From Streptomyces sp. NBC_01460 (lineage in GTDB: Bacteria; Actinomycetota; Actinomycetes; Streptomycetales; Streptomycetaceae), in contig NZ_CP109473.1 of the NCBI RefSeq assembly GCF_036227405.1, forward strand, positions 1,364,001 through 1,428,000: a stretch of 64,000 nt of DNA. The letters run 5' to 3'. The notes beneath the pieces are model-generated. The model was not told the origin of the DNA. It did not search any database and was given only the letters and a program-made list of their open reading frames with translations. Of this stretch, positions 2,479 to 26,375 are shown in pieces; positions within the stretch are counted from its first letter, which is position 1; the number at the start of each line of letters is the position of its first letter. The position numbers were made by a program, and so were the translations under genes.

Positions 2479-3705
2479 TCACTGGCCCCGGATGCGCCGT
2501 CCTGCCTCCGTGCCCGGGTAGAGCATCGCGTCGGCGACACGGCCGCCGGAGTCCTTCACGCCACCGCTGAAGTTGAGCCGCCCGGTCGCCCCGGCCTTCG
2601 CGGCCACACCGTCCCAGTAGCGCGCCTCCCGCTCCCACCGGATGTCGGCGAGGAGCCTCTGCAGCGCGTCGGTGCTCAGCGCGTTCGCCGGGTCGGCCCA
2701 CGGGGTGGTGTGGTGGACGGCGATCCCGAGCCCGGCCAGCACGGCGGGTGCGGTGACAGCACTGCGCGAGACGAAGTGCGCGCTGTGCTCGGCGATGAGC
2801 CGGGCGAGCAGCGGTACGACGTGTCCCTCGACCTGACCCGCGTCGGTACCGGCGGGCAGCTCGTCCTCCTGGACGGTCTCCGCGGACCGTGACAACCCGT
2901 TGCGTCCGTAGACCGCCGTGATGACCAGGGCCCGCAGCGCGGAGAGGGTGATCACCTCGGGGTCGCTCTTGCCGACCTGGCGCTTGCTGGCGTTGACGAG
3001 CTTCGTGAACGGCACGAGCTTGCCGTCCACGTCCACCTTGACGGCGTCGGCGACGCGGTGCGCGAGGCGGGTGGCGAAGTCCCGCTGGTCCATGGACATG
3101 GCCAGGTTCTTCGCGACGGCCACGCCCTGGACGTTGCGGTCGTAGAAGATCTGCCGCGCGTCGGCGACGCTCAGGTCGACGTACAGCTCGAACGGCACGC
3201 GGATCGTCGCGAGTTCGGCATAGGTGAGCCCGAAGTGCTCCGGGTCGTCGTACAGCTCATGCCAGGCGGTCGTCTGGGTCTCGCCGTCGATGGCGACGAC
3301 CGAGGTGCCGGGCGTGATGGTCAGGGTGCGCAGTCCGGTGCCGGGCAGCAGTTCGTCGCTGAGCGCGGCGAGCGGTCCGGCGTGCCAGAAGGTGATCGGC
3401 GGCGTGGACCAGCCGGCGCCCAGCTCCCCCTTGACGCCGTCGGCGATGTACTCGGCGTACGAGCCGACGTTCTTCCCCTTCTGCGTGGACTTCAGCGCCC
3501 GCTGCACGAGCGACCGCAGTTCGGCGTGACGACGCACGGCGCCGGAGGCGGCCTTGAGCGTCTTCGTGTCCTCCTCGCGGCGAGGAGAGGGAACGAGCTG
3601 GACGAGCGTCGGGACGGACATGGTCCCGATCACGGCGTCCGCCCGGAACGGCATGACGGTGAGCTGGGTGCCTTCGACGACAGCGGTCGGCATGGTGATG
3701 CGCAT
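2479..3705 (-). CDS. DGQHR/DndB-like domain protein
   Basis: About 408 residues. The middle holds VVAIDGETQTTAWHEL followed by IRVPFELYVDLS and ARQIFYDRNVQGVAV. This is the layout of the DGQHR family, to which DndB, the regulator of DNA phosphorothioation, belongs. Here the diagnostic IDGQHR reads IDGETQ. The rest is mostly helical with no other recognised domain. No dndA/C/D/E genes are in the window, so a role in sulfur modification is not supported. Position next to two DNA methylases and divergent from them suggests a regulator or accessory factor of this restriction locus (inference). The ATG at 3705 is preceded by GGGGGGA at good distance. Family call is moderately sure, role unknown. 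Confidence 0.6.
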   Translation of the reverse strand: MRITMPTAVVEGTQLTVMPFRADAVIGTMSVPTLVQLVPSPRREEDTKTLKAASGAVRRHAELRSLVQRALKSTQKGKNVGSYAEYIADGVKGELGAGWSTPPITFWHAGPLAALSDELLPGTGLRTLTITPGTSVVAIDGETQTTAWHELYDDPEHFGLTYAELATIRVPFELYVDLSVADARQIFYDRNVQGVAVAKNLAMSMDQRDFATRLAHRVADAVKVDVDGKLVPFTKLVNASKRQVGKSDPEVITLSALRALVITAVYGRNGLSRSAETVQEDELPAGTDAGQVEGHVVPLLARLIAEHSAHFVSRSAVTAPAVLAGLGIAVHHTTPWADPANALSTDALQRLLADIRWEREARYWDGVAAKAGATGRLNFSGGVKDSGGRVADAMLYPGTEAGRRIRGQ

Positions 3706-3803
3706 GGCGATTCCCCCCACGGGATCGACGAGTTGCCCGTACCCCCTCGGGCCGAGCACCTTCACTTGGAAGCAACACCAGAGAAGCATCACCATGAAAG
3801 CAT

Positions 3804-3842
3804 TGTCAAACAGCTTGACGCGTTTGACCGAGAGTGTAAGTT
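3804..3842 (+). promoter_or_regulatory. Divergent promoter region between DGQHR and methylase-fusion genes
   Basis: For the rightward gene, TTGACG (3815-3820) and TAAGTT (3837-3842) are spaced by 16 bases, 39 bases before the ATG at 3881. On the other strand TTGACA (3809-3804) can serve leftward transcription, though I see no good -10 for it. TGTCAA and TTGACG form an imperfect inverted repeat over 3804-3820, and a second TTTGACC follows at 3823. An operator shared by both genes is plausible. AT content is high for this genome. Confidence 0.45.
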
Positions 3843-3880
3843 GTGAGCTGTCAGCTACCGAGAGGCCCAGGACTCCCGCC

Positions 3881-6061
3881 ATGCCCCAGCCACCAGCCCA
3901 GGTGACCGCCGCCGAGATCTCACGCATCGCGGGAGTCACGCGCGCCACCGTCAGCAACTGGCGCCGTCGGCACGACGACTTCCCCGCGCCGTCCGGGGGC
4001 ACCGATTCCAGCCCTCTGTACGACCTGGTCGCCGTGCAGAAGTGGCTCGGCGCCCGAGGCCACGCATCGACGGCCGACCCTGCGGAGGAGCTGCGCACCA
4101 CGTTGCGACTGCACCCCGGGGGTGGCGGCATGACAGGCGCCCTGCTCCCTCTGGCGCTGGCCACGGCTCGGCGCACTCCCGAGGAGCGCACCGCGCTGGC
4201 CCGCCTGTCCGACGCCGAGCTCGTCGCCCGCGCCGACAGGGCGGTGGCCGACCTCGCGGAGCTGGTCCCCGGCGCGGAGGCGGTCCACTTCGCGGCGCCT
4301 GACGTCGATGTCCTGCGGGCGCTGCTGCGCTGCGTACAGGACGACGCGAGCGGCGAGGCGGCGCTGGCCGTGCTGGCGGAGCGCGAGCTGGAGGACAGTG
4401 CCGCGAGCGGCACCTATCGCACCCCGGTGCAGCTGGCCGACCTCGTCGCCCGCCTGGTGCCCGGCCCGTACGCACAGGTCATGGACCCGGCGTGCGGCAG
4501 CGGCTCCCTGCTCTCGGCCGCCGCCCGGCGGGGCGCGAAGGTGCTGTACGGCCAGGACAGCGTTCCAGTGCAGGCGCAGCGCAGCGCGGTGAGCCTGCTG
4601 CTGGCCGCCCCGGGCGCGGACATCACGGTGCGTGCGGGAGACAGTCTCCGCGCGGACGCGTTCGGCCGGGTCACCGTGGACGCTGTCCTGTGCAACCCGC
4701 CGTACGGCGACCGCGACTGGGGCCAGGACGAGCTGGCATACGACGCCCGCTGGGCGTACGGCGTGCCACCGCGCGCCGAGTCCGAGTTGGCCTGGGTCCA
4801 GCACGCGCTGGCTCACCTGGTGCCGGGCGGCCACGCCGTCCTGCTCCTCCCCCCGGCCACCGCCTCCCGTGCCTCCGGCCGCCGGGTCCGCATGGAGCTG
4901 GTCCGCAGCGGCGCCCTGCGCGCGGTGGTGGCCCTGCCTCCGGGCGCGGCGGCGCCGTTCCATGTGGGGCTCCAGGTCTGGATACTGCAACGCCCCGAAC
5001 CGGCCGGCCCCGCACATACGTCGGTCCTGTTCGTCGACACGTCCGAGGCGGCGGTAGCAGGCGCCGACACGGCGACCGGCACGGGTACAGGCACACGCAC
5101 GGGCGGCACCGCCTCCGGCACGCGCACCGGCCGCGCCCCACTGAACTGGACGGCTCTCACCGAGACGGCGCTCACCCAGTGGTCGGCCTTCGCGAAGGAC
5201 CCGGACGCGTACGCCGACGAGCCGGGTACCGCCCGCGCGGTCCCGGTGGTCGACCTCTTGGACGACGTCGTGGACCTCTCCCCCGCCCGCCATGTACGCG
5301 CCTCACGCACGGACATCGCCCCGGCGGAACTGGCCCGGGAAGTGGACGAGGTACGCCGACGGCTCGTCGCCGGTGCCAAGTCACTGGGCAGGGCGGCTGG
5401 TTACGACGACTGGAGCGCGGCCGGTCCCGCCCCGCGCGTGTGGCGCACGGCCACGGCGTCGGACCTGTCCCGGGGCGGCGCGCTCACGTTGCTGCGCACG
5501 GCGCCGGACTCCAAGGGTTCCGCCGGTGCCGCACCGGTGGCTGCCGTACTCACCGGCCTGGACATCGCGCGCGGTACGGCCCCATCGGGTGACCCGAGCG
5601 GGCTGCGGGCGGACGGGGCGCCGGTGATCGCGGCGGGCGACGTGCTCGTACGCGCGGTCGCGGGCGGAAATGGCGCGATGGCCCGGGTGGCGAACGACGC
5701 GGACGCGGGGGCTCTGCTCGGCCAACAGGTCCACCTGTTCCGGCCGGATCCGGCAAGGCTCGATCCGTGGTTCCTGGCCGGTTTCCTGGGCGCGGAGGAG
5801 AACATCGCGAGCGCGTCGACGGGCAGCACGGTGCTTCACGTCAGCCCGGGCCGACTGCGCGTCCCGCTGCTGCCACTGGAGGAGCAGAGACGCTACGGCG
5901 AGGCGTTCCGCCGCGTCCACACACTGAGAACCGAGGCCGCGCGCGCCACGGAACTGGCCGAGGAGACGGCCCGGCTGCTGGTCGGCGGGCTGACGGGGGG
6001 CGGGCTGGTGCCGTCAGCTCCAGCGGCGGCCGGCAGCGGGGCATCCGCGGAATCGGCCTGA
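3881..6061 (+). CDS. HTH / N6-adenine DNA methyltransferase / specificity-like fusion protein
   Basis: About 726 residues. The N-terminus is a helix-turn-helix (AEISRIAGVTRATVSNWRR). A helical region follows, then an adenine-methylase domain of the HsdM type with SAM motif VMDPACGSGSLLS and catalytic NPPY (LCNPPYGDRDW). A low-complexity Gly-Thr stretch (about 5070-5130) leads to a C-terminal part resembling a specificity subunit: a target-recognition-sized region, then RVPLLPLEEQRRYGEAF and a helical end. It therefore looks like a self-contained methylase with its own reader and no nuclease. It could modify DNA alone or be a second methylase of the adjacent hsd operon (inference). The ATG at 3881 follows the promoter at 3815-3842; the upstream in-frame codons overlap the divergent promoter. 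Confidence 0.75.
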   Translation: MPQPPAQVTAAEISRIAGVTRATVSNWRRRHDDFPAPSGGTDSSPLYDLVAVQKWLGARGHASTADPAEELRTTLRLHPGGGGMTGALLPLALATARRTPEERTALARLSDAELVARADRAVADLAELVPGAEAVHFAAPDVDVLRALLRCVQDDASGEAALAVLAERELEDSAASGTYRTPVQLADLVARLVPGPYAQVMDPACGSGSLLSAAARRGAKVLYGQDSVPVQAQRSAVSLLLAAPGADITVRAGDSLRADAFGRVTVDAVLCNPPYGDRDWGQDELAYDARWAYGVPPRAESELAWVQHALAHLVPGGHAVLLLPPATASRASGRRVRMELVRSGALRAVVALPPGAAAPFHVGLQVWILQRPEPAGPAHTSVLFVDTSEAAVAGADTATGTGTGTRTGGTASGTRTGRAPLNWTALTETALTQWSAFAKDPDAYADEPGTARAVPVVDLLDDVVDLSPARHVRASRTDIAPAELAREVDEVRRRLVAGAKSLGRAAGYDDWSAAGPAPRVWRTATASDLSRGGALTLLRTAPDSKGSAGAAPVAAVLTGLDIARGTAPSGDPSGLRADGAPVIAAGDVLVRAVAGGNGAMARVANDADAGALLGQQVHLFRPDPARLDPWFLAGFLGAEENIASASTGSTVLHVSPGRLRVPLLPLEEQRRYGEAFRRVHTLRTEAARATELAEETARLLVGGLTGGGLVPSAPAAAGSGASAESA

Positions 6062-6103
6062 ACCGGCACTACGGCCTTCACCCAACCACCACACTTGTCA
6101 GTA

Positions 6104-6129
6104 CCCGCTCCGGTAGACCGGAGAGCGGG
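6104..6129 (+). promoter_or_regulatory. Bulged hairpin upstream of hsdM
   Basis: CCCGCT-CCGGT and ACCGG-ag-AGCGGG pair with a two-base bulge and a two-base apex. It sits in the 95-base gap between the methylase-fusion stop (6061) and the hsdM TTG (6157). It could be a weak terminator or a leader structure limiting HsdM translation. Confidence 0.4.
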
Positions 6130-6156
6130 GGGTCCGAAAGGAAACCGGGGAATCCC

Positions 6157-8274
6157 TTGAACAGCAGCAAGCACACGGAGCTGGCGAACCACGCCTGGTC
6201 CGTCGCCGACCTTCTGCGCGGCGATTACAAGCAGTCCGACTACGGAAAGGTCATCCTTCCGTTCCTGGTGTTGCGCCGCCTCGAATGCGTCCTGGAGCCG
6301 ACGCGGGAGAAGGTCGCGGAGACGGCCGCCCGTTTCGAGGGCCAGGAGATCGACACGGACCACTTCCTCCGCCGGGCGTCGGGCCACTCGTTCTACAACA
6401 CGAGCAGCCTGACCCTGCGGAAGATCGCCGGCGACGCGAGCAATGCGGCAGCGAACCTCCAGGTGTACGTCGGGGGCTTCTCTCCCAACGCCCGTGAGGT
6501 CATGGAGAAGTACGAGTTCGCCCAGCAGATCCGCAAGCTCGACAGTGCGAACCTGCTCTACCAGGTGATCGGCAAGTTCACGGACCTGGACCTGCGCCCG
6601 GAGGTCGTGCCCAACCACAACATGGGCTACATCTTCGAGGAGCTGATCCGGCGCTTCTCCGAGCAGTCCAACGAGACCGCGGGTGAGCACTTCACCCCGC
6701 GCGAAGTGATCAAGCTGATGGTCAACCTGCTGATCGCCCCGGACGGCGACGCGCTCAGCCTGCCGGGTGTCGTACGCACGGTCATGGACCCGGCCTGCGG
6801 CACGGGCGGCATGCTCAGCGCGGCCGAGGACCACATCAAGTCGTACAACGACGACGCCACGGTGGAGGTCTACGGGCAGGAGCTCAACCCGGAGTCCTGG
6901 GCGATCTGCCGGTCCGACCTGATGATCAAGGAGCAGGACCCGGAGAACATCGCCTTCGGCAACTCCTTCTCGGACGACGGCCACGCGCGGGAGACGTTCG
7001 ACTACCTGCTGGCCAACCCGCCGTTCGGCGTGGAGTGGAAGAAGGTGAAGGAGGCCGTCGAGTTCGAGCACAACAACCTCGGCGACTCCGGCCGCTTCGG
7101 CGCGGGCCTGCCCCGCATCAACGACGGCTCGCTGCTCTTCCTCCAGCACATGATCTCGAAGATGAAGCCGGTGGACGTGAACGGCGGGGGCGGCTCGCGC
7201 GTCGCGATCGTCTTCAACGGTTCCCCGCTCTTCACGGGTGCGGCCGGCTCGGGTGAGTCGGAGATCCGCCGCTGGATCCTGGAGAACGACTGGCTTGAGG
7301 CGATCGTCGCCTTGCCGGACCAGCTCTTCTACAACACGGGCATCTCCACCTACTTCTGGATCCTGACGAACCGCAAGGACCGTCAGCACAAGGGCAAGGT
7401 CGTGTTGCTGGATGCGCGCGACCAGTGGGTGAAGATGCGAAAGTCGCTGGGCGACAAGCGCAAGGAGCTGGGCGATGGGACGGGCGGCAAGCCGAACCAC
7501 ATCGGCGACATCACCCGCCTGTACGGGGAGGCTGTGTCCGCCGCGGCGGACCCGGAGCACCCGATGCACGCCAAGGTGAAGGTCTTCGACAACACGGCGT
7601 TCGGCTACCAGCGGATCACGGTCGAAAGGCCGTTGAAGCTGCGCTTCGAGCTGACGGAGGAGACGCTGGCGGCGCTGCTCGCGTCGAAGCCGGTGCAGAA
7701 GTGGGCGGAGGAACGCTTCCTGCCGCGCGAGCCAGAGCTGGCGGCGAAGGCGAAGGCCCGCCGGAAGCTGACGGACGAGGAGCAGGCGCAGTTCCAGAAG
7801 CTGGCCGACGCCGAGGCGCAGGTGCTGGGGGACGCACTGAGCCCACTGCTGGGCAGCGGGTGGGCCACCAAGTCCGAGGCGCAGGTGGCGGTACGGAACG
7901 CCATGGCGGAAGCCGGCGTGCAGGGCCCGACGGGCGCGCCGTTCACGAAGGCACTGCGGGACACGGTGGGGGTGCGGGACCCGGAGGGCGAGCAGCAGCT
8001 CCTCAAGGGCGGGGAGAAGGAGCCCGACGGTGAGCTGCGGGACTACGAGAACGTGCTGCTGGGCGAGGACGTCGAGGAGTACCTGAAGCGCGAGGTGCAC
8101 CCGCACGTGCCGGATGCGTGGATCGACCACTCGAAGACGAAGGTGGGGTACGAAATCCCGTTTACGCGCCACTTCTACGTGTACGAGCCGCCGCGGCCGT
8201 TGGCGGAAATCGACGCGGAGCTGAAGACGCTTGAGGCAGAGATCCAGGCACTGCTGGGCAAGGTGACGGAATGA
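6157..8274 (+). CDS. hsdM: Type I restriction-modification methylase subunit
   Basis: Adenine methyltransferase subunit that forms M2S with HsdS and protects host DNA. About 705 residues. The N-terminal HsdM helical domain (HAWSVADLLRGDYKQSDYGKV) is followed by the methylase core with SAM motif VMDPACGTGGMLS and NPPF (LLANPPFGVEW). A long C-terminal helical region is charged and probably contacts HsdS or HsdR. The length is above the usual 500-550 because of this extension. The start is the TTG at 6157, which gives the family N-terminus NSSKHTELANHAW; GGGG lies 6 bases before it. The stop overlaps the hsdS ATG by 4 bases, indicating translational coupling. Confidence 0.93.
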   Translation: MNSSKHTELANHAWSVADLLRGDYKQSDYGKVILPFLVLRRLECVLEPTREKVAETAARFEGQEIDTDHFLRRASGHSFYNTSSLTLRKIAGDASNAAANLQVYVGGFSPNAREVMEKYEFAQQIRKLDSANLLYQVIGKFTDLDLRPEVVPNHNMGYIFEELIRRFSEQSNETAGEHFTPREVIKLMVNLLIAPDGDALSLPGVVRTVMDPACGTGGMLSAAEDHIKSYNDDATVEVYGQELNPESWAICRSDLMIKEQDPENIAFGNSFSDDGHARETFDYLLANPPFGVEWKKVKEAVEFEHNNLGDSGRFGAGLPRINDGSLLFLQHMISKMKPVDVNGGGGSRVAIVFNGSPLFTGAAGSGESEIRRWILENDWLEAIVALPDQLFYNTGISTYFWILTNRKDRQHKGKVVLLDARDQWVKMRKSLGDKRKELGDGTGGKPNHIGDITRLYGEAVSAAADPEHPMHAKVKVFDNTAFGYQRITVERPLKLRFELTEETLAALLASKPVQKWAEERFLPREPELAAKAKARRKLTDEEQAQFQKLADAEAQVLGDALSPLLGSGWATKSEAQVAVRNAMAEAGVQGPTGAPFTKALRDTVGVRDPEGEQQLLKGGEKEPDGELRDYENVLLGEDVEEYLKREVHPHVPDAWIDHSKTKVGYEIPFTRHFYVYEPPRPLAEIDAELKTLEAEIQALLGKVTE

Positions 8275-9548
8275 GTGGGAGCCGCATCGCCCCGTGGCTC
8301 ACTGAGTCAAGATGGCCCACAGTTCCCATCCGGCTGGTTGCCCGCCTTGGATCTGGACACACCCCTAGCCGAAGCAAGCCAGAGTATTGGACTGACTGCA
8401 CCGCACGATGGATCACCTTGGCTGATGTCTGGCAGTTGCGAAGCGGTCAGAGGAACATCATCACGGAAACCAAGGAAATGATCAGCCCGCTGGGTCTGGC
8501 GAACTCTTCGGCTGTTCTCCATCCTCCCGGAACCGTGATTCTTTCCCGCACAGCGTCGGTGGGATTCTCGGCCATCATGGGAACCGAAATGGCCACAAGC
8601 CAAGATTTCGCAACCTGGACGTGTGGGCCACGACTGGAGCCCCGCTACCTGCTCCACGCTCTGCGCGGAATGGCGCCGGACCTCCGACGCATCGCCACAG
8701 GATCAACTCACAAGACCATCTACATGCCGGACATTGAGCAGTTGAGAATCCCGCTGCCCCCGGTGGACGAGCAGTGCCGCATCGCCGACTTCCTCGACGC
8801 CGAGACCAGCCGCATCGACCACTTGGTCTCGCTGCGAACACATCAGCACACCCTCCTCGAGAACCGGTTCAGTGTCGCGGTTCGTGAGCAGTTCTTGGCA
8901 TTTGATACAACGCCGACCCGTCTTAAATTTCTCTTGGCAGCCCGTCCACGTTATGGCGTCCTCGTACCCAAGTACGTTGCTAGTGGAGTCAAATTCATTC
9001 GTGTCAATGACCTTCTGAATCTCGAAGGTCGTGCAGACAATCTGCTGCAGATTTCCACTGACGTCTCGCAGCAATATCCCACCACCGTAGTGCGCAAAAA
9101 CGATGTGCTCGTAAGCGTAGTGGGCACTCTGGGGCGTGCAGTCGTGACTCCCGCCAGCCTGAGTGGCGCTAACGTCAATCGAGCAATCGCCGTTTTGCGC
9201 ACCAATCCCGGTATCAATCGTAACCTCCTGACTTCATGGATCAACTCCGAGGGATTTCAAACGCAGGCCGTGCTGGCCACCGGAAACGACAGTGCGCAAC
9301 GGACCCTGGGCATGGAAGATTTGTCCAACTTCACTCTACGGTGGCCGACGGACAAAGATTCGCAAACGCGGTTGGCTACCCGCGTAAGCGAGATGGAGAA
9401 AGAAACGCGTACCTTGGAACGTCTACTTCTCCTGCAAATCGGTAGCCTCAAAGAACGTCGCCAGACCCTCATCACCGCCGCCGTAACCGGCCAGTTCGAC
9501 GTCTCCACTGCCAGCGGCCGTAACGTAACGGACGGAGTTTCGGCATGA
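8271..9548 (+). CDS. hsdS: Type I restriction-modification specificity subunit
   Basis: Reads the bipartite DNA target for the M2S and R2M2S complexes. 425 residues in the usual plan: target-recognition domain 1, conserved spacer helix (PPVDEQCRIADFLDAETSRI), target-recognition domain 2, second conserved helix ending LKERRQTLITAAVTGQFD. Base composition falls sharply inside the gene, especially about 8880-9400, where A/T-rich codons such as aaa, ttt and ata appear. This contrasts with hsdM and hsdR and indicates exchange of recognition domains by transfer. ATGA overlaps join it to both neighbours. Confidence 0.93.
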   Translation: MSGSRIAPWLTESRWPTVPIRLVARLGSGHTPSRSKPEYWTDCTARWITLADVWQLRSGQRNIITETKEMISPLGLANSSAVLHPPGTVILSRTASVGFSAIMGTEMATSQDFATWTCGPRLEPRYLLHALRGMAPDLRRIATGSTHKTIYMPDIEQLRIPLPPVDEQCRIADFLDAETSRIDHLVSLRTHQHTLLENRFSVAVREQFLAFDTTPTRLKFLLAARPRYGVLVPKYVASGVKFIRVNDLLNLEGRADNLLQISTDVSQQYPTTVVRKNDVLVSVVGTLGRAVVTPASLSGANVNRAIAVLRTNPGINRNLLTSWINSEGFQTQAVLATGNDSAQRTLGMEDLSNFTLRWPTDKDSQTRLATRVSEMEKETRTLERLLLLQIGSLKERRQTLITAAVTGQFDVSTASGRNVTDGVSA

Positions 9549-12500
9549 GCCCCATCCACAGCGAGTCCGCCTTCGGCGACGCCATAGTCGCCGCCCTGAC
9601 CGAGCGCGGATGGCGCAAGGCCAGTCCCACAGACTACGAGGCCGACCTCGGCCTGGACACCAAAGAGCTGTTCCGCTTCCTCAACGCGAGTCAGCCCCAC
9701 GAGTGGGCTGAACTCGTCGCCGTCTACGGCAACGACGTCAAAACCGCCGAGCGCGGCTTCGCCCAGCGCCTGGACAAGGCCATCAACGACGACGGTCTCC
9801 TGAACGTCCTCCGTAACGGCGTCAAGGACCGGGGCGTCCGCCTGCGCGTCGCCTACTTCAAGCCGAACCTCGTCGCCGACGACTCCGTCCTCGACGGCTA
9901 CCGCGCCAACCGCCTCACCGTCGTACGCGAACTCGTCTACGCCACCAAGCAGGCCGACTGGGGCAACAAGCTCGACCTGACGCTGTTCCTCAACGGCATC
10001 CCCGTCGCCACCGCCGAGCTGAAGAACCCGCTCACACGGCAGAATTTCAAGGACGCTAAGGAGCAGTACCGCACCGACCGCGATCCCACCGAGCTGATCT
10101 TCACCCGCCGGGTGATCGCCAACTTTGCGGTCGACCCGGACCTCGTCTTCGTCGCCACCCAGCTCCGGGGCAAGAACACCCGCTTCCTGCCGTTCAACAC
10201 CGGCTCCAACGGTGCCGGCCTGCCCGGTGGCGCCGGAAACCCGGCCCCCACCGCGTACGGCACGTACGCCACCTCCTACCTGTGGGAGCAGGTCTGGGCG
10301 CGGGACAACTGGCTGGACCTGCTCCAGCGCTACGTGCACCAGCAGAAGACCAAGACCCCCGGCGGCGGGACCACCAAGTCGACGATCTTCCCGCGCTTCC
10401 ACCAGTGGGACGTGGTCAAGAAGCTCACCACCCACGCAGCGACCTTCGGCGTGGGCCAGAACTACCTCGTGATGGCCTCCGCCGGCTCCGGCAAGTCGAA
10501 CACCATTGGCTGGCTCGCCCACCGCCTGAGCGACCTCCACGCCGCCACCGACCCCCGGACGCTCGACCCGGATGCGCTGTCAGCCGGCCGGATCAAGCCG
10601 GGTACACCGGTCTTCGACAAGGTCATCGTCATCACGGACCGCCGCAACCTCGACGCCCAGCTCCGGGAGACGGTCGGCAGCTTCTCGCAGATCGAGGGCC
10701 TGGTCGTGAAGGTGGACGAGAAGCACGGTTCGAAGAGCGAGCAGCTCGCCCGCGCGCTGTCACGGGACACGGGCAAGATCGTCACGGTCACCCTGCACTC
10801 GTTCCCGGCGCTTCTGGACTACATCCAGCGCAACCCCACCGAGATCAAGGGCACCAGCTTCGCCATCATCGTGGACGAGGCGCACTCCTCCCAGTCCGGC
10901 GACGCCGCAACCGCCGTACGTGCGGCCCTGCGCGACCTCGGTCTGGACTCCGACTCGGAGGACCAGGGCGCCACCACCGTCACGCTCGACGAGAAGCTGA
11001 AGAAGAAGGCCGCGGAGCGCTCACAGGCCGCGAACCTCTCCTACTTCGCGTTCACCGCCACCCCGAAGGCGAAGACGCTCGAACTCTTCGGCACGGAAGA
11101 CATAGTGGACGGCAAGGCGGCCTACCGCCCCTTCCACACGTACTCCATGCGCCAGGCCATCGAGGAGGGCTTCATCCTCGATCCGCTGCGGAACTACGTC
11201 ACGTACAACACGTACTGGAAGCTGGTGAACCAGAACCCGGACGAGCGTGAGGTGGACCCCTCCAAGGCCAACAGCCTGCTCGCCCGGTACGCGCTCACCC
11301 ACGAGTACACCGTCTCCCAGCACGCGCAGGTGATCGTCGAGCACTTCCTGGCGCACTCCCGCGGCCGGCTCGGCGGGCGGGCCAAGTCGATGGTGGTGAC
11401 GGGTTCGCGGCAGTCGGCCGTGGAGATGGCGCGTGCGATCAAGAGCTACATCAAGGACCGGGAGTACGACACCAAGTACCCGGACCTGGGTGTCCTGGTG
11501 GCCTTCTCCGGCTCGCTCACGATCGACGACGAGGAGACGACCGAGCCGAAGGAGAACGGCGGGATCGCGGAGAGCGCGCTGCCGAAGGCGTTCGCCTATA
11601 CCCGAGCCGACGACAAGGCGGTCGGCGCGGGCGGCCGGGGCCAGCAGGAATTCAAGATCCTGGTCGTGGCAGAGAAGTACCAGACGGGCTTCGACCAGCC
11701 ATTGCTGACGACCATGTACGTCAACAAGAAGCTGACCGGTATCTCCGCCGTGCAGACCCTCTCCCGGCTCAACCGCACGGCCGACCGCAAGAACCAGGCG
11801 GACCTCGCGGTCCTGGACTTCGCGAACGACGCCGAGGACATCCGGGACGCGTTCCGCCCGTACTTCGAGGAGGCCAACACCCTCCCCTCCGACCCGAACC
11901 TGCTTTACACCGCGCAGAGTCGGGTCATGTCGGCGCCGATCATCTCGGAGTCGGAGATGGACGAGTTCGCCGCGGCCTACTTCGCGGCGAAGGAGAAGGC
12001 GGCCGGCTCTCAGGCCAAGTGGGAGAAGCTGCACGCGGAGCTGTACCGGCTCCTGTCCCCCGCCGTCGCCCGCTTCACCCCGCTCATGGAGAGCGAGGAG
12101 GAAGACGACGTGGAGACGGCGGAGGACTTCCGCGCAGACCTCAACGACTACGTGCGCAAGTACGGCTTCCTGGCCCAGATCGTTCCGTACCGCGACGCCG
12201 AGTTGGAACGGCTTCACCTCTACGGCCGCTACCTCCTCAACCGTCTGCCCCGCCGCGCGGACGGTGGCGTGGACATAGGGGAGATCGACCTCAGTCACCT
12301 GCGCGTGGAGAAGATCGACGAGTACGACCTCTCGCTGTCGCCCGAGGGCTCCGCCCAGCTCCCCGGCTTCGGTGACGGCACGGGCGGCGCGGCGGAGGCG
12401 GAAAAGTCGCTGCTGTCGGAGCTGATCGAGGCGTTCAACGCCAAGTTCGGCACGGACTTCACCGAGGAAGACGTCCGCAAGCCGTTCGACAAGACCAAGG

Positions 12501-12724
12501 AAGACCCCAAGGTTCGGGCGGCGGCCGTCGTCAACGACGAGGCCAACTTCGGCAAGGTCTGGGACAGAGCCTTCGCCGACAACATGGCTGACCACATCGA
12601 GACGACGGCTGGCATAGGGCGTCAGTACTTCGGCCCCGACAAGAGCTTCCGGTCCAACCTGGACCGCAGCGCACGCCGGGCGGCGTGGCGGATGATCCGC
12701 CGCGAGGAGAACGTGGACGAGTAG
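9545..12724 (+). CDS. hsdR: Type I restriction enzyme, R subunit
   Basis: ATP-driven translocase and endonuclease that cuts DNA unmodified at the HsdS target. 1059 residues. The N-terminal nuclease domain contains the PD-(D/E)xK core around ATAELKNPLTRQNF. The superfamily-2 motor has Walker A MASAGSGKSNT, DEAH box IIVDEAHSS and motif III AFTATPKAKT. Motifs V and VI lie in the stretch around EKYQTGFDQPLLTT and TLSRLNRT. The C-terminal helical region for M2S docking ends in EENVDE. All key residues are present, so the enzyme should be active. It overlaps hsdS by 4 bases and is followed by a hairpin terminator. Confidence 0.94.
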   Translation: MSPIHSESAFGDAIVAALTERGWRKASPTDYEADLGLDTKELFRFLNASQPHEWAELVAVYGNDVKTAERGFAQRLDKAINDDGLLNVLRNGVKDRGVRLRVAYFKPNLVADDSVLDGYRANRLTVVRELVYATKQADWGNKLDLTLFLNGIPVATAELKNPLTRQNFKDAKEQYRTDRDPTELIFTRRVIANFAVDPDLVFVATQLRGKNTRFLPFNTGSNGAGLPGGAGNPAPTAYGTYATSYLWEQVWARDNWLDLLQRYVHQQKTKTPGGGTTKSTIFPRFHQWDVVKKLTTHAATFGVGQNYLVMASAGSGKSNTIGWLAHRLSDLHAATDPRTLDPDALSAGRIKPGTPVFDKVIVITDRRNLDAQLRETVGSFSQIEGLVVKVDEKHGSKSEQLARALSRDTGKIVTVTLHSFPALLDYIQRNPTEIKGTSFAIIVDEAHSSQSGDAATAVRAALRDLGLDSDSEDQGATTVTLDEKLKKKAAERSQAANLSYFAFTATPKAKTLELFGTEDIVDGKAAYRPFHTYSMRQAIEEGFILDPLRNYVTYNTYWKLVNQNPDEREVDPSKANSLLARYALTHEYTVSQHAQVIVEHFLAHSRGRLGGRAKSMVVTGSRQSAVEMARAIKSYIKDREYDTKYPDLGVLVAFSGSLTIDDEETTEPKENGGIAESALPKAFAYTRADDKAVGAGGRGQQEFKILVVAEKYQTGFDQPLLTTMYVNKKLTGISAVQTLSRLNRTADRKNQADLAVLDFANDAEDIRDAFRPYFEEANTLPSDPNLLYTAQSRVMSAPIISESEMDEFAAAYFAAKEKAAGSQAKWEKLHAELYRLLSPAVARFTPLMESEEEDDVETAEDFRADLNDYVRKYGFLAQIVPYRDAELERLHLYGRYLLNRLPRRADGGVDIGEIDLSHLRVEKIDEYDLSLSPEGSAQLPGFGDGTGGAAEAEKSLLSELIEAFNAKFGTDFTEEDVRKPFDKTKEDPKVRAAAVVNDEANFGKVWDRAFADNMADHIETTAGIGRQYFGPDKSFRSNLDRSARRAAWRMIRREENVDE

Positions 12725-12794: not shown

Positions 12795-13049
12795 TCAGCC
12801 AGCCACGAGCCCGACAAAATCGGTCCAAGCGTCTGGCCCCACGGTCAGCACAGGACCAGTGGCCTGCTTCGAGTCCCGGATGTGCACGTGGGTAGCCGCA
12901 GCAGCAAACTCGACGCACTCGCCGCCGTTGCCGGTGCTGTAACTACTCTTACGCCAGGCGACCTCAACGCAGTCGCCACCTTCAGCCCCGCTGTAGCTGC
13001 TCTTGTACCAAGCAAGCTCCTGCGAGGCAGAAACTTCGGCGGTGTTCAT
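12795..13049 (-). CDS. DUF397 small protein with duplicated motif
   Basis: 84 residues of the DUF397 family, small Streptomyces proteins almost always encoded beside an XRE regulator. The signature W-x-KSSYS-x-x-x-GG-x-CVE occurs twice in tandem: WYKSSYSGAEGGDCVEV, then WRKSSYSTGNGGECVEF. The usual C-terminal part (HIRDSKQ, GPVLTV, W..F) follows. Its ATG overlaps the stop of the XRE gene (TCAT on the plus strand, 13046-13049). Biochemical role is not established; related pairs behave like regulator/partner modules in development. Confidence 0.88.
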   Translation of the reverse strand: MNTAEVSASQELAWYKSSYSGAEGGDCVEVAWRKSSYSTGNGGECVEFAAAATHVHIRDSKQATGPVLTVGPDAWTDFVGLVAG

Positions 13050-13918
13050 AGCTCTCCCAGCAACTTCTCGATGAACCCCAAGGACTCTCCCGGAGTGAGA
13101 GCCTGGCTCCGGATGATCCCATAGCGGGCTGCGGCGAGCCGCGTCTCGTCCCGATCACTTAGCCAATTACTGCGCCCTTGTGCCTCGGTATACACGAGCT
13201 GTTCCCCGCCCTTGCGCGTAACCACTGTGAAGGGACCGTCCACCCCGGCGTTGTCGTCGCGATCGAGCGGCATCACTTGGATTTCAACATTACGGAACCG
13301 GCCGAACTTCAGGAGCTGCGTCAACTGGCCACGCAGAACGGCTGGACCGCCCAACGGGCGTCGCAGAACGGGCTCCTCCACGACAAAGCTCATGAGTGGT
13401 GCGGGCCAGCGGCTGAAGATCTCCTGCCGCGCCAAGCGCGCAGATACCCGTTGTTCGATGGTGTCCTCGTCGAGCAACGGTCGTCGCATGGCGAGAACAG
13501 CGCGCGTGTACTCCTCGGTCTGCAACAGGCCCTTGACCATGTGCGTGTCGTACGCGCACAGCTCGACCGCCTCAGCCTCCAGCCGCGCCATGTCCCGAAA
13601 GAACGCCGGATACTGTGACCGAGCCAGCTCCTCCTTCAACGCCACCAGCAGTCCCCCGGCGTCCAGCACCCGGTCCGCCTTGTCGACGAACTCCGGCTGA
13701 GGAATCCGCCGCCCCTGCTCGAACGAGGCCACCGACTGCGCCGCGTACCCCACCCGCTTGCCGAACTCCACCCGGTCCAGCCCGGCCCTCACCCGGAGCA
13801 GCTTCAACTGCCGCCCGAACGCGACCGCAACCCCGTTCTCCGACCTGCCCTCCGGCTGCGTCCCCGACGAGGTCACCGCCCCCGCGTCCATGACCGCCTC
13901 GTCCTGCGTCATCGCCAC
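13046..13918 (-). CDS. XRE-family helix-turn-helix regulator with DUF5753-type C-terminus
   Basis: About 290 residues. The N-terminal HTH spans roughly residues 28-85 (LKLLRVRAGLDRVEFGKRVGYAAQSVASFEQGRR). The C-terminal region with YDTHMVKGLLQTEEYTRAV, RQEIFSRWP and EIQVMPLDRD is the DUF5753 domain found in Streptomyces regulators such as the BldB/WhiJ-associated class. It is translationally coupled to the DUF397 gene downstream. The first possible start is a GTG (13918), with an ATG two codons later (13912); AGG-type ribosome sites precede both. Likely a DNA-binding regulator of itself and its neighbour. Confidence 0.87.
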   Translation of the reverse strand: MAMTQDEAVMDAGAVTSSGTQPEGRSENGVAVAFGRQLKLLRVRAGLDRVEFGKRVGYAAQSVASFEQGRRIPQPEFVDKADRVLDAGGLLVALKEELARSQYPAFFRDMARLEAEAVELCAYDTHMVKGLLQTEEYTRAVLAMRRPLLDEDTIEQRVSARLARQEIFSRWPAPLMSFVVEEPVLRRPLGGPAVLRGQLTQLLKFGRFRNVEIQVMPLDRDDNAGVDGPFTVVTRKGGEQLVYTEAQGRSNWLSDRDETRLAAARYGIIRSQALTPGESLGFIEKLLGEL

Positions 13919-18560: not shown

Positions 18561-19204
18561 GCGGGGAGAACGCGGATCTTCGGGTTCCGCCGGAGGCATT
18601 GGCGGAGATCGCGCAGGGGATCGACCTGGCGCATGCGGAGTTGAAGGAGCTCGGGTTCATCGGTGAGGCGTCGGTGGGGCGGGGGTTCTCGGATCTTGCG
18701 CTGTCGGGGCTGGAGCTGGGGCATGGCGGGCTGACGTCGGAGTTCGAGACGTTCTGCAACCGGTGGGAGTGGGGTGTGCGGGCCCTGACGCAGAAGGGGA
18801 ACGGCTTCGCCCTCGGTGTCGGTCTGTCGGCGGGCTCGTATGCGGAGCAGGAGCAGTACGTCAAGGACTCGATCAAGATCGGTGTGAATTCCCTGAACGG
18901 GAATCCTCATGCGTCCGAGGACGAGGTCAAGGGCATGAGCTGGGACACGATCAGCACCCAGTCCGCCTACGACAACCCGGACTACAGCCGCGAGTCGTGG
19001 GATGCGGCCCACGCCGAGGTGAAGCAGACCTGGAAGGACACCGCCTACGACGTGGAGGACGCCGCGCTCGACTCGATGGAGCGCAACGGGCTGATGGACC
19101 CGGCGGTGCGGGATGCTGCGGACGAGCGGCTGCGGGAGCGGCTGGATCCGTCGCAGGAGACGATCGATCAGGCTGAGCAGCCGCGGTGGGGGGAGAGTCG
19201 CTGA
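18557..19204 (+). CDS. WXG-like (type VII secretion-associated) helical protein
   Basis: 215 residues, predicted mostly helical, with a W-x-x-G turn (CNRWEWGVRAL) between long helices as in WXG100-type proteins, though much longer. It probably accompanies the RHS protein to an ESX/type VII secretion system encoded elsewhere (inference). It starts at a GTG overlapping the SseB-like stop and ends in TGATG shared with the RHS gene, so three genes are translationally coupled. Confidence 0.6.
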   Translation: MSGENADLRVPPEALAEIAQGIDLAHAELKELGFIGEASVGRGFSDLALSGLELGHGGLTSEFETFCNRWEWGVRALTQKGNGFALGVGLSAGSYAEQEQYVKDSIKIGVNSLNGNPHASEDEVKGMSWDTISTQSAYDNPDYSRESWDAAHAEVKQTWKDTAYDVEDAALDSMERNGLMDPAVRDAADERLRERLDPSQETIDQAEQPRWGESR

Positions 19205-22200
19205 TGGTGGACTGGGGGAAGTGGGGCGACGCCCTGTACGACGGTGCCGGCGACGTGGTCGACAAGGGCAAGGAGATCGTCGGCAAGGGCGTCGACAAGG
19301 GCACCGATGTGCTCGGTTCGGGTCTGGAAAAGGTCGGTGCCGAGGGGTGGGCCGACAAGGTCGAGGACTGGGGCGATGAGACCGCCTCTGCCCTGGGTGC
19401 GAACGTCGGGGAGCAGCAACTCGGTCAGACCGAGGAGGCAGATGAGCTGATCCATGGCAGGCCGGAGAAGATCAGCGCGGCGGTGAAGAACCTCCGCGAC
19501 TTCCAGAAGGCGTTCGATCTCGTCGGCGGCGGAATGAGGAAGCTCGACTCCGGCCATTGGAAGGGTGAGGCCGCTGACGCATTCCGCGCCAAGTTCCAGA
19601 CGCTGCCCACCGACTGGGTGCGCGCGGCGGACGCGTTCGAGGACGCGGCCAAGGCGTTGGAGACGTTCGCAGGGTCGGTCACCAGCGCGCAGGCCAAGGC
19701 CTCTGAGGCGATCGCTCTCTTCAAGGAGGGCAAGCAGGACTACGAAACTGCGGCTGCCGCTTTCAAGGTGAAGGCGGAGGCATACAACGCGGTCCGGAAC
19801 ACCGACCATCCGCTTCCGCACCCGGGAACGTTCTCCGATCCGGGCGCAACCAAACGGCGGCACGCACAGGAGATCCTGCAACGTGCCAGGCAGGCACGCA
19901 ACGACGCTGCCGAGACGGCAAAGGGCGCGATCACCGCCGCGATGGCGCACGCCCCGAAGGAACCGACCGGTATGGATCGGGCGAAGCAGGAACTGATCGA
20001 CTACGGGGTCGGCCAGGGCATGGAGTTGGCGCACTTCGGCGGTGGTGTCATCAAGGGCACCGCGGGACTGGTGAACTTCGTCCGCTCGGTCAATCCCCAG
20101 GACCCGTACAACCTGACGCACCCGGCCGAGTACTACAAGGGCGTCAACATGACGCTCGCCGGCCTCACGTCCACCGTCGCCAACCCCGACCGGGCGCTGA
20201 AGAACGCCTGGGACGCGGCAAAGGGTGACCCCTCCGAATTTCTCGGCAGGCTCGTCCCCGAACTGATCGGCACCAAGGGTGGGGGCCTGATCAAGGGCGG
20301 CCTGCGGGCCGGGATGAAGGACCTCCGCAAGCGCCCCACGGGCCCCAACCGCCAAGGGCACGAGCGCAATCCTGACTCCAATGGGCAGCAGTGCAGCAAG
20401 GTCGAGTGCGCCAACGACCCCGTCGACGTCGCGACCGGGCGCATGCTGCTTCCGCAGACCGACATCGTGCTGCCTGGGTCGCTACCTCTGGTCTTCGAGC
20501 GCGTCTTCGACTCTTCACACCGCGCCGGCCGCTGGTTCGGTACAGGGTGGTCGAGCACGGTCGATCAACGCCTCGAGATCGACGCGGAAGGTGTGGTCTT
20601 CAGCTGCAACGAGGGCAGCTTGCTCGCATACCCACACCCTGCACCCGGCGTTCCCGTCATGCCTACGCACGGCAGGCGGTGGCCCCTGGACCGGGTGGGC
20701 GACGGCTACACCATCACCGACCCGGAAACCGGCCAGATCCGGCACTTCGTCGACCAGCCCACCGGGGACCTGGCGCTCCTGGCCCAGATCGACGACCGTA
20801 ACGGCCGCTGGATCGCCTTCGAGTACGACGAGGTAGGCGCTCCGACGTCGATCGTGCACCACGGCGGCTATCACCTGAAGCTCACCACGCACGACAGCAG
20901 AGTCACCGCCCTTCACTTGGCGGGCGCCGGAGCGGACGGCACCGATCAGGAGATCCTCCGCTACGGCTACACCGACGGCCACCTCACCGAGGTCACCAAC
21001 TCCTCGGGGAAGCCCCTGCGTTTCGACTGCGACGAGCTGGGCCGCGTCACCGCGTGGACGGACACCAACGGCAGCCGGTACGAGTACGTCTACGACGAAC
21101 ACGACCGCTGCGTGTACCAGAGCGGCACCAATGGCCACCTCGAAGCCCGGTTCACCTGGGACGACACCGATCCAGACACCGGCCTGCGCATGACGTCCAT
21201 GACGGACAGCCTCGGCCACGCCACGCGATACGTGATCAACGACCGATCCCAGATCGTCAGCGAGATCGGCCCTCTGGGGGCGGTCACCCGCTACGAGCGG
21301 GACCGCTACCACCGGCTGTTGTCCCACACCGACCCGCTCGGCCACATCACGCGCTTCACCTACGACGAAGACGGGCGGCTGACCGAGGTGGAGCGGCCGG
21401 ACGGACGCCGGTCATGCGCCGAGTACAACGAACTGGGACTTCCCGTACGCATCGTCGGCACCGACGGAAATGTCACCCGGCAGACCTTCGACGAGCGTGG
21501 CAACCGAACCGCGATCACGGAACCCACCGGCGCCACAATCGCATTCTCGTACGACGAGGCGGGTCACCTCGTCTCCATGGCCGATGCCCTCGGGCAGACT
21601 TCGATCGTCACGCCCGACAAGGCCGGACTTCCCATCGCAGTCACTGACCCATTCGGCGCGACCGCTCTCTACGAGCGGGATGCCTTCGGCCGCCCAGTCT
21701 CGCTCAGGGACGCTGGGGGTGCGGTCACCCATCTCGAATGGACTATCGAAGGCAGAGTTGCCCGTCGCGTCGGAGCCGACGCAAGCGAGGAGTTGTGGAC
21801 CTACGACGGTGAAGGAAACTGCCTCACCCATACCAATGCCGCCGGCGCGACCGTCAGCTTCGAGTACACCGATTTCGACCTCCTGCTGTCACGCACAGAG
21901 GCGGACGGCGCCCGGTACGAGTTCACGCACGACAGCAACCTCCGGCTCACTCGGGTCACCAACCCTCAGCACCTGAGCTGGAACTACGGATACGATCCAG
22001 CCGGTCAGCTGATATCCGAGACGGACTTCGATGACCGGACGCTCCGCTATGAGCGGGATGCTGCAGGCAGGCTCGCTGCACGCACCAGCGCCGCAGGCCG
22101 AACAACCCGCTACGAGCGGGACAGGCTCGGTCGCGTCGTCCGCAAGAACGCCGCCGGAACCACCTCCACCTTCGCGTACGACTTCGCCGACCACCTCGTG

Positions 22201-24785: not shown

Positions 24786-26375
24786 GTGCCGGAGCAGCCG
24801 ATCGCCGGGCGGTACGAGCTCGTGGAGGAGCTCAACAGCGGTGGCATGGGCGACGTGTGGCGTGGTTACGACGCCGTGCTGGACCGGCCCGTCGCCGTGA
24901 AGGTGGTCCGGCGGCAGGCCGTTGCCGGTTCACCGCAGCTGGCCGAGGAGTTCGCCAAGCGGTTCAAGCGCGAGGCCCGCATCACCGCGCGCATCCAGCA
25001 TCCCGGCGTGCCGCAGGTGTTCGACGCGGTGCTCGATGACTCCTTCGAGCGGCTCTTCCTCGTCATGGAGCTGGTCGACGGCATCCCCCTGTCCACGTAC
25101 ATCCATCCCGACCGCCCGCTGCCCGTCAGCTGGGCCGTGGCCGTCGCCGCGCAGGTCGCCACCGTGCTGTCGCACGCCCACGACGTGCCCGTCATCCACC
25201 GAGATCTCAAGCCGTCCAACATCCTGGTCGCCCGGGACGGCACCGTGAAGGTCCTCGACTTCGGCATCGCGGCGATCCTGCGCACCGACGTCACCAAGCT
25301 GACCGCGACCGGCAGCCCCATCGGCACGTACCAGTACATGGCACCGGAGCAGGTCCGAGGCGGGCGTACCAGCCCTCAGACCGATCTGTACGCGCTGGGC
25401 TGCGTGTTGCACGAACTGCTCAGCGGGCGAACCCTGTTCACCGCCGACAGCGAGTACCTGGTGATGTACCAGCATGTGAACGCCGCTCCGACCCCGTTGC
25501 GCCTGCTGCGACCGGATGTGCCGGAGTCCTTGGAGGAGCTGGTCCTGCACCTGCTGCTCAAGGCGCCGGAGGCGCGGCCCGCCGACGTCCAGGAGGTGTA
25601 CGAGCGGCTTCGGCACTTCCTGCCTGCGCCCGGCACCCTCCCCGCACCCGGTGAGGCCGGGCCGCAGGGAGCGCCGGATCCGACCGCGCTCTTCCGTCAG
25701 CCGTACGCGCCACGTGCCCGCGCCGGTGCAGGACGGCCCGTGCCCACCACGGTCGATCCGGCCGCCGCACCGCCGGTCCCCGTCGCCGTGCCCGCGCAGT
25801 TGCGGGAGGAGATCGCGGAGGCGTACGCGCACTCCGACGCGCTGCTGGACGAGGAACGGTTCGCCCAGGCCGCCGAGGTGCTGAGCGAGGTCATCGAGCC
25901 GGCCGCCCATGCACTCGGCGCCGAGAACAGGAAGGTCCTGGAGCTCCGTACGCAGCGCGCCGCGATCCGGCTGCTCGGCGGCGACTACCGTGCGGCGCTG
26001 CCGGAGTTCGACGCCTTGGCCGACGCATACACACGTACCAGCGGCCCCAGCAGTACGCAGGCACGTGCGTGCCGTGCACAGGCTGCCCGGTGCCGTGCCG
26101 AACTGGGCCAGGCGACCGACGCGCTGGCCGCGCTACGGGGTGTCCTGGACATCGCCCGCGCGGTCGACGGCGACGTGAGCGACGAGGCGGTCGAGCTGCG
26201 CCGGGACATCGGCATGCTCCTGCTTGCCCAGGGACAGGCGCCTGAGGCACAGCTGATCCTCGCGCCCCTCCACGACGATCTGTGTCTGGTCTACGGTCCG
26301 ACGGACGACATGTCCGAAGAGGTCGCCGAGGTGCTGAGCGTGATCGAACTCGATCTCGACGGCCCGACCCTCTGA
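24786..26375 (+). CDS. Soluble Ser/Thr protein kinase with C-terminal TPR-like region
   Basis: 529 residues. A complete Hanks-type kinase domain (about 8-270) has the Gly loop LNSGGMGDVW, VAVK lysine, catalytic HRDLKPSN, DFG and GTYQYMAPEQ. After a Pro-rich linker, residues 335-520 form TPR-like helical repeats (AYAHSDALLDEERFAQAAEV, YRAALPEFDALADAY, DALAALRGVLDIAR). There is no membrane segment, unlike PknB-type receptors, so it acts in the cytoplasm. The start is a GTG at 24786 after GGGGGCAAG. The helicase gene follows after 45 bases on the same strand, suggesting a shared transcript and perhaps a kinase-substrate pair. Confidence 0.88.
   Translation: MPEQPIAGRYELVEELNSGGMGDVWRGYDAVLDRPVAVKVVRRQAVAGSPQLAEEFAKRFKREARITARIQHPGVPQVFDAVLDDSFERLFLVMELVDGIPLSTYIHPDRPLPVSWAVAVAAQVATVLSHAHDVPVIHRDLKPSNILVARDGTVKVLDFGIAAILRTDVTKLTATGSPIGTYQYMAPEQVRGGRTSPQTDLYALGCVLHELLSGRTLFTADSEYLVMYQHVNAAPTPLRLLRPDVPESLEELVLHLLLKAPEARPADVQEVYERLRHFLPAPGTLPAPGEAGPQGAPDPTALFRQPYAPRARAGAGRPVPTTVDPAAAPPVPVAVPAQLREEIAEAYAHSDALLDEERFAQAAEVLSEVIEPAAHALGAENRKVLELRTQRAAIRLLGGDYRAALPEFDALADAYTRTSGPSSTQARACRAQAARCRAELGQATDALAALRGVLDIARAVDGDVSDEAVELRRDIGMLLLAQGQAPEAQLILAPLHDDLCLVYGPTDDMSEEVAEVLSVIELDLDGPTL

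Follow-up and report, generated by a model that had tools for sequence, protein, structure and literature searches.

A kinase-linked type I restriction locus of actinobacteria headed by a methylase that may be its own transcription factor

According to the excerpt of PMC12255303 used here, EcoKI and like enzymes are prevented from cutting their own host through ClpXP. The same excerpt describes RptR, a 79-amino-acid (aa) repressor encoded by the first gene of type I operons in Gammaproteobacteria, and RptR shows that such operons can workably be controlled by a repressor at their head. Among methylases, M.SsoII, as presented in an excerpt of PMC3978073, binds to a quasi-palindrome of 15 bp, reduces its own expression and has a stimulating effect on the nuclease gene. 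Here we describe a locus of Streptomyces sp. NBC_01460 that is a different candidate for type I self-control, in which a built-in methylase with a DNA switch would be joined by a signalling kinase, and for which a precise operator is predicted. The locus lies in a stretch of 64,000 nucleotides, referred to as the window (contig NZ_CP109473.1, positions 1,364,001 to 1,428,000; G000:C1:1364001-1428000 in our numbering), which is part of an 8.8 Mb genome.

Five genes were confirmed between 2479 and 12724, namely, a DndB-superfamily gene on the minus strand followed, on the plus strand, by the gene of a fusion protein, hsdM, hsdS and hsdR. The fusion protein, named FUS, combines a winged helix-turn-helix (wHTH), an N6-methylase and a single target-recognition domain (TRD). 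The conserved locus reaches past 12724, to a kinase gene and sometimes a helicase gene, and the kinase, which lies outside the interval considered there, was missed by an earlier, sequence-only reading of this DNA. We lean, with some reserve, towards viewing this locus as a kinase-linked type I system headed by a methylase that is its own transcription factor. Its features are as follows.

2479-3705, minus strand: DGQHR/DndB-superfamily protein, 408 aa, with a ParB/Srx-like N-terminal domain and the box DGETQ; accessory gene in the divergent slot
3768-3842, plus strand: predicted FUS operator/promoter
3881-6061, plus strand: FUS, 726 aa; wHTH, N6-adenine methylase, coiled coil, single TRD, coiled coil
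3908-4054, plus strand: wHTH of FUS, residues 10-58, its most conserved domain
4427-5053, plus strand: methylase domain of FUS, residues 183-391, with motifs DPACGSG and NPPY
5438-5866, plus strand: single TRD of FUS, residues about 520-662
6157-8274, plus strand: HsdM, TTG start; HsdM_N and N6_Mtase (Pfam)
8271-9548, plus strand: HsdS, two variable TRDs; Methylase_S, 67 bits
9545-12724, plus strand: HsdR, nuclease and superfamily 2 (SF2) motor; HSDR_N, SWI2_SNF2, T1R_D3-like
24786-26375, plus strand: Ser/Thr protein kinase with C-terminal TPR, displaced by an insertion; Pkinase 150.8 bits, TPR_12
26421-28586, plus strand: UvrD-like (GajB-like) helicase, an inconstant partner after the kinase; UvrD-helicase 78.2 bits, PADLOC GajB 106.7 bits

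By gene content, hsdMSR is predicted to encode an ordinary, complete type I enzyme. HsdM joins HsdM_N to an N6 methylase with intact catalytic motifs (DPACGTG, NPPF), and HsdR carries a nuclease and an SF2 motor with intact GSGKS, DEAH and AELKNPL motifs. HsdS has two variable halves between conserved spacers, as expected of two TRDs; Pfam marks one Methylase_S stretch (15-178), and the PADLOC S models span both halves. The pairs hsdM/hsdS and hsdS/hsdR overlap by 4 bases each, and FUS and hsdM are 95 bases apart. The locus has in common with described type I restriction-modification systems a complete hsdM, a two-TRD hsdS, hsdR and overlapping genes, but it adds a constant-specificity HTH-methylase-TRD gene at the head and a Ser/Thr kinase-TPR gene after them.

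The sequence-only reading had proposed a second adenine methylase with its own HTH and a specificity-like end, and this architecture was borne out by the structure model of FUS, which contains a wHTH, an N6 methylase and one TRD. The model (mean predicted local distance difference test score, pLDDT, 84; predicted template modelling score, pTM, 0.64) was divided, on our own reading of its secondary structure, into wHTH (residues 10-58), helical domain (67-172), methylase (183-391), coiled coil, TRD (about 520-662) and coiled coil (666-706). FUS matches Pfam N6_Mtase at 122 bits, its DPACGSG and NPPY motifs are intact, and the PADLOC Type I methyltransferase model PDLC03037 covers residues 2-721 at 922 bits. 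No Pfam HTH match was obtained on FUS at E 0.01; weak PADLOC mad1 and PHROG DNA-binding matches fall in the wHTH region. The top Foldseek match of the model is PDB 7eew (668 columns), an intact methyltransferase from Vibrio vulnificus, which is, like FUS, an M-type methylase, with a 638-residue chain, and which we take to be an M-S fusion. However, the two differ in that they share 16% identity and superpose at a TM-score of 0.31-0.37 and a root-mean-square deviation of 32.9, and the domains thus do not superpose as a single body. Among named organisms, the closest relatives of FUS come from [Kitasatospora] papulosa and Streptomyces species. The locus offers a testable function for a widespread Streptomyces methylase that is annotated just as 'N-6 DNA methylase'.

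As far as the excerpts go, FUS resembles the M.SsoII/M.Ecl18kI/M.EcoRII type (PMC3978073) in having an HTH before the methylase, as in M.SsoII, and a conserved site in its own promoter. It differs in being an N6 rather than a C5-cytosine methylase, in its TRD and coiled coils, in its kinase partner and in that its autoregulation is predicted. FUS also resembles RptR (PMC12255303) in being encoded first in a type I operon, in the repeats of its promoter and in the defence genes located between hsdS and hsdR, but a 79-aa repressor stands there against a 726-aa wHTH methylase that also has hsd-free forms.

The association of FUS with type I genes was examined in two overlapping samples. For the first, 150 Streptomyces genomes were searched with three proteins, and 27 regions whose HsdR relative is at least about 45% identical were taken together with the window as 28 loci, their genes being called with a simple script. 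For the second, named genomes were scanned with an HsdR alignment and the best 80 of 589 relatives were retained, with upstream counts drawn from the 74 loci having at least 8 kb upstream and downstream counts from the 74 having at least 5 kb downstream. FUS precedes hsdM in 26 of the 28 Streptomyces loci, the exceptions being G130_C2 and G030, and in 70/74 named actinobacterial loci. The order FUS-hsdM-hsdS-hsdR-kinase, with its strand, recurs across many genera; the best 80 relatives include Streptomyces, Micromonospora, Nocardia, Actinomadura, Lentzea, Saccharothrix, Kribbella, Glycomyces and Streptosporangium. Co-occurrence of FUS, hsdMSR and the kinase is far above chance, and FUS and hsdMSR form one conserved unit. 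As far as gene content goes, the earlier proposal of a two-methylase restriction system was therefore right. FUS and the type I genes, which it had suggested surveying for co-occurrence, are by these counts not seldom found together. Five more distant type I loci, taken from the eight whose HsdR is 38-40% identical, showed neither FUS nor the kinase in the stretch covered, about 2.2-2.3 kb downstream of hsdR.

The kinase is the second most constant partner. A kinase-TPR gene follows hsdR in 25/28 Streptomyces loci; two of the three without it, G069 and G129, stop at a contig edge, and the third is G006. Among the named loci, a kinase-TPR match of at least 450 bits lies behind hsdR in 63/74, and in 34 of these 63 the kinase frame starts either before the hsdR frame has ended or fewer than 500 bp past its end, a spacing taken between stop-to-stop open frames, so that the actual gene starts later. 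Other kinases of the window's genome reach 237-392 bits on the same model (8 open frames, 6 loci scanned). The kinase of the window has the motifs HRDLKPSN and DFG. An insertion with an RHS protein parts it from hsdR, and G071 is arranged similarly. A helicase after the kinase is present in 16 of 61 judgeable named loci. Inside the hsdR-kinase insertion of the window, 19186-24042 encodes an RHS-repeat protein with a signal domain of the type VII secretion system (T7SS) type.

FUS and the kinase are also paired where hsd genes are absent. The kinase of the window has 32 matches in its own genome, itself included, and its best paralogue (G000:C1:3494523-3496016; 47% identity over the full length, 380 bits, the next reaching 203) sits directly behind a second FUS gene (G000:C1:3496789-3498888). 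A kinase lies downstream of hsd-free FUS in all 17 Streptomyces loci picked from the best matches, and three genomes of another family (L178-L180) have FUS-kinase-helicase with no hsd genes. FUS and kinase distances on FastTree trees, which hold many long branches and a few near-duplicate rows, correlate at 0.84 over 95 loci (0/500 permutations as high), at 0.89 within type I loci and at 0.95 within solo loci. Mapped on these trees, the label 'with hsd genes' needs only 4 changes for FUS and 2 for the kinase, against a shuffled mean of about 21. On this pairing and the agreement of the trees, hsdMSR sits within a pre-existing or co-moving FUS-kinase pair. FUS, being found also without hsd genes and without the kinase, is thus not only a type I controller.

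The recognition domains of FUS and HsdS behave differently. In close loci, HsdS TRD blocks have a mean pairwise identity of 0.17-0.21 (10 sequences), whereas those of FUS reach 0.55-0.74 (16 sequences). A second comparison gave FUS TRD identities of 0.62 (25 type I-linked sequences) and 0.75 (17 hsd-free sequences), near those of the methylase domain (0.73 and 0.75, respectively), and the wHTH is the most conserved domain of all (0.83 and 0.86). Since the FUS TRD is constant while those of HsdS are hypervariable, FUS very probably reads one fixed sequence while the specificity of HsdS changes.

Upstream of FUS, the window has three iterons, namely, GGAAGCA (3768-3774), GAAGCA (3783-3788) and GAAAGCA (3796-3802), with spacers N8 and N7, followed by a palindrome made of GTCAAAC (3805-3811) and its inverted copy GTTTGAC (3822-3828), with ten bases between them. 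The element overlaps a promoter-like pair recognized by eye (-35-like TTGACG, 3815-3820; -10-like TAAGTT, 3837-3842). An anchor pattern, GAAAGC[AG]NNGTC[ACT]A, is present in 56 of 93 distinct FUS upstream regions, and among these 56 an iteron occurs at -28 in 46 and at -14 in 38, compared with at most 2/54 at five control offsets. In named loci whose FUS is at least 50% identical, the anchor is found in 35/39, and in none of 14,200 single-base shuffles; several loci with more distant FUS have, by eye, a related GTGAA...GTCAA element.

The promoters of hsd-free FUS genes carry an element that differs from this one but is built alike, TGTGAACCGAGTCAACA, after which CGGTTCAC often comes. TGTGAACCGAGTCAACA occurs in 60 of the 150 genomes, exactly once in each, while its reversed control gave 0. 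Going by the matches listed, 58 of these 60 copies have a FUS match downstream of them in the same orientation. For the remaining two, at 2.8 and 0.7 kb from a contig start, there is no FUS among the matches listed. A kinase-TPR match, again among those listed, lies 1.5-6 kb downstream of 50 of the 60 sites. Occurrence once per genome, at one gene, is as autoregulation predicts.

What was observed is gene content and order, their conservation, the constant TRD of FUS beside the variable ones of HsdS, the conserved upstream element and the FUS-kinase pairing with and without hsd genes. What we infer goes further, namely, methylation of DNA by FUS, its binding to the element and repression, an action of the kinase on these proteins and a role of the whole in phage defence. 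HsdMSR would be the cutting enzyme, with a recognition by HsdS that differs from locus to locus, and FUS a separate N6-adenine methylase of fixed specificity. The wHTH of FUS would bind the iteron operator overlapping the FUS-hsdMSR promoter, and this binding would limit the operon to a safe level, much like M.SsoII in a type II system. The kinase-TPR protein would modulate FUS or one of the Hsd proteins, probably in response to infection, and the DGQHR-like protein, encoded in the divergent slot, would serve as an interchangeable accessory, either as regulator or as effector. It is tempting to speculate further, as a tentative possibility, that FUS and the kinase-TPR protein form an undescribed methylation-plus-phosphorylation switch of Actinomycetota, the widespread hsd-free pair at its separate Streptomyces locus being an epigenetic regulator with a single operator and the type I copies its armed form, with a swappable restriction enzyme set between the two partners, in which the kinase would license or restrain restriction via FUS. 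If so, the target of FUS would be constant genus-wide, and a single operator per genome would make FUS a self-measuring methylase.

Several points weigh against an autoregulatory FUS acting together with the kinase and HsdMSR. A consensus promoter scan did not list the TTGACG/TAAGTT pair, and among the 32 named loci whose FUS is more distant the anchor is present in just 6. Another protein may read the conserved element, and conservation of a promoter does not separate repression from activation. Two loci without a DGQHR gene, G006 and G025, also lack the iterons, and a link between iterons and that gene is possible. Moreover, hsdMSR and the kinase occur without FUS in L230, L268, L272, G130_C2 and G030, and of 26 further loci picked by hand, 6 have FUS with neither hsd genes nor kinase. 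The kinase of the window lies 12 kb from hsdR, behind the insertion, and is therefore probably not co-transcribed with it; and co-inheritance is no proof that the FUS, kinase and HsdMSR proteins cooperate.

The sequence-only reading had raised the possibility of a dedicated regulator, taken here to be the divergently encoded DGQHR protein. The placement of this protein opposite FUS and in the DndB superfamily held, with Pfam DndB PF14072 at 42.6 bits against a gathering cut-off of 29.1, but the 'DGQHR' box of the protein reads DGETQ, and it scores below the cut-offs of the NCBIfam DGQHR and DndB models (TIGR03233, 25.2 versus 328 bits). The absence of dnd genes, also claimed earlier, agrees with the lack of any dndC match in the window's genome at E 1e-3; five of 14 control genomes do match, none above the family cut-off. 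Compared with DndB, the protein thus shares the PF14072 superfamily and a ParB/Srx-like domain, but differs in its DGETQ box, its type I partner and a genome without a dndC match. The annotation of its gene as 'DNA sulfur modification protein DndB' is no evidence of phosphorothioation. The DGQHR-like gene fills the divergent slot in only 9 of 26 sample loci with FUS, which lends no support to a dedicated regulator. The other occupants are DUF6119/TIGR04141 (6), a family we could not name (3), PD-(D/E)XK (1), SMC/AAA (1), another DGQHR-type protein with a short open reading frame between (1), and something else or nothing (5). On the other hand, 10 of 11 DGQHR-like matches of at least 54% identity lie beside FUS and divergent from it, and since the gene is nearly always beside FUS when present, it is a real accessory. 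The DGQHR-like protein may have a regulatory role; the wHTH of FUS is the more probable regulator.

Two side observations concern this slot. In L085:9051-14151 a DGQHR-like gene, 54% identical to that of the window, directly precedes a SIR2_2/DUF4020 gene beside phage-type integrases, with no FUS; and the DUF6119/TIGR04141 'sporadically distributed protein' stands in place of the DGQHR gene, divergent from FUS, in L058:11180-12868 and five further loci.

The same evidence bears on four other explanations. That the DGQHR/DndB-like protein is a dedicated transcriptional regulator, whose binding site would be the N10 palindrome (or else the iterons) on the model of DndB in Salmonella, seems improbable. 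S. enterica DndB binds TACGN10CGTA in the promoter of its own operon (PMC4507180), and the shared promoter of the window indeed has GTCAAAC-N10-GTTTGAC; the gene is divergent beside FUS in the 10/11 matches mentioned, and both iterons, at scores of at least 6, are somewhat commoner with it (15/20 loci, versus 19/36 without, by our count). But the palindrome is found in loci without the gene, e.g., G006 and G123, and the iterons in G130_C8, G040 and G139, which lack a DGQHR gene of the window's type (G040 has another DGQHR-type gene), most loci have other genes in the slot, and the box reads DGETQ. Similarly, we doubt that FUS, hsdMSR and the kinase are separate systems gathered in one defence island. 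The upstream slot and the hsdS-hsdR gap do gather defence genes (HEC-01-like pairs, AIPR, DUF6119), and FUS and the kinase exist without hsd genes; a mere hot spot, however, does not fit a gene order and strand that recur over many genera, FUS and kinase phylogenies that agree, and the five more distant type I loci lacking both in the stretch covered.

It is also unlikely that FUS is a second M-type subunit of a mixed type I enzyme rather than a separate methylase or regulator. This possibility is raised by the best PDB sequence match of the FUS profile, 7vru_A (157 bits), from an entry entitled PacII_M1M2S whose distinct M subunits we read from the title and from the difference between chains A and B, and by the position of FUS before hsdM in 70/74 loci. 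Yet FUS has its own TRD and coiled coils, it pairs with the kinase in 17/17 hsd-free loci, its TRD is constant while HsdS varies, and HsdS already has two TRDs, as in an ordinary M2S1 enzyme. Membership in the already described MADS or Pgl/BREX systems, as an actinobacterial form, is very unlikely. MADS (mad1, 2, 5, 6), known here from PADLOC and NCBIfam names, has HTH, methylase, S subunit and kinase in one locus; FUS unites in a single chain an HTH like that of mad1, a methylase like mad2 and an S half like mad5, and the kinase matches PADLOC mad6 at 235.6 bits. The locus differs in having HTH, M and S fused in FUS and a complete hsdMSR besides, the kinase scores better on the PD-T4-6 models (304.4 bits), and no NCBIfam MADS cut-off was reached by FUS, HsdM, HsdS or the kinase, namely, MAD2 (720 bits; FUS 25.0, HsdM 55.8), MAD5 (400 bits; HsdS 37.5) and MAD6 (460 bits; kinase 148.9). 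No mad3, mad4, mad7 or mad8 is among the PADLOC matches listed for the scanned window proteins; a mad3-like AAA protein (57.4 bits) occurs in some other loci. Streptomyces Pgl, in the excerpts of PMC12707154 and PMC12839542, also has a methylase and a kinase, but the kinase of the window reaches 63.8 bits against the 990-bit cut-off of PglW, and neither pglZ nor brxC/pglY is among the matches listed for the scanned window proteins. The parts of the locus are of known kinds; for the FUS-hsdMSR-kinase constellation, and for the FUS-kinase pair that lacks hsd genes and has one exact operator site per genome, no description was found in the open-licence literature.

Other genes accompany these loci. 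The gap between hsdS and hsdR holds an AAA_21 and DUF4276 pair (PADLOC HEC-01A/B) in L069:11693-13545 and L078:5431-7310, with the same insertion in L187, L212, L221, L231, L244 and L263, an arrangement reminiscent of the defence genes embedded in the RptR island. In L209, L228, L230, L241 and L245 the gap has a match to an AIPR cluster whose representative, L072:4739-6895, matches AIPR and AbiU. At L065:3143-7789 an open frame of 1548 aa, which has no match in Pfam, immediately precedes FUS and shares its strand. Finally, hsdR of the window is followed on the minus strand, at 12795-13918, by a small protein gene, presumably similar to DUF397, and by an XRE/DUF5753 regulator whose relatives occur in 14 of the compared stretches.

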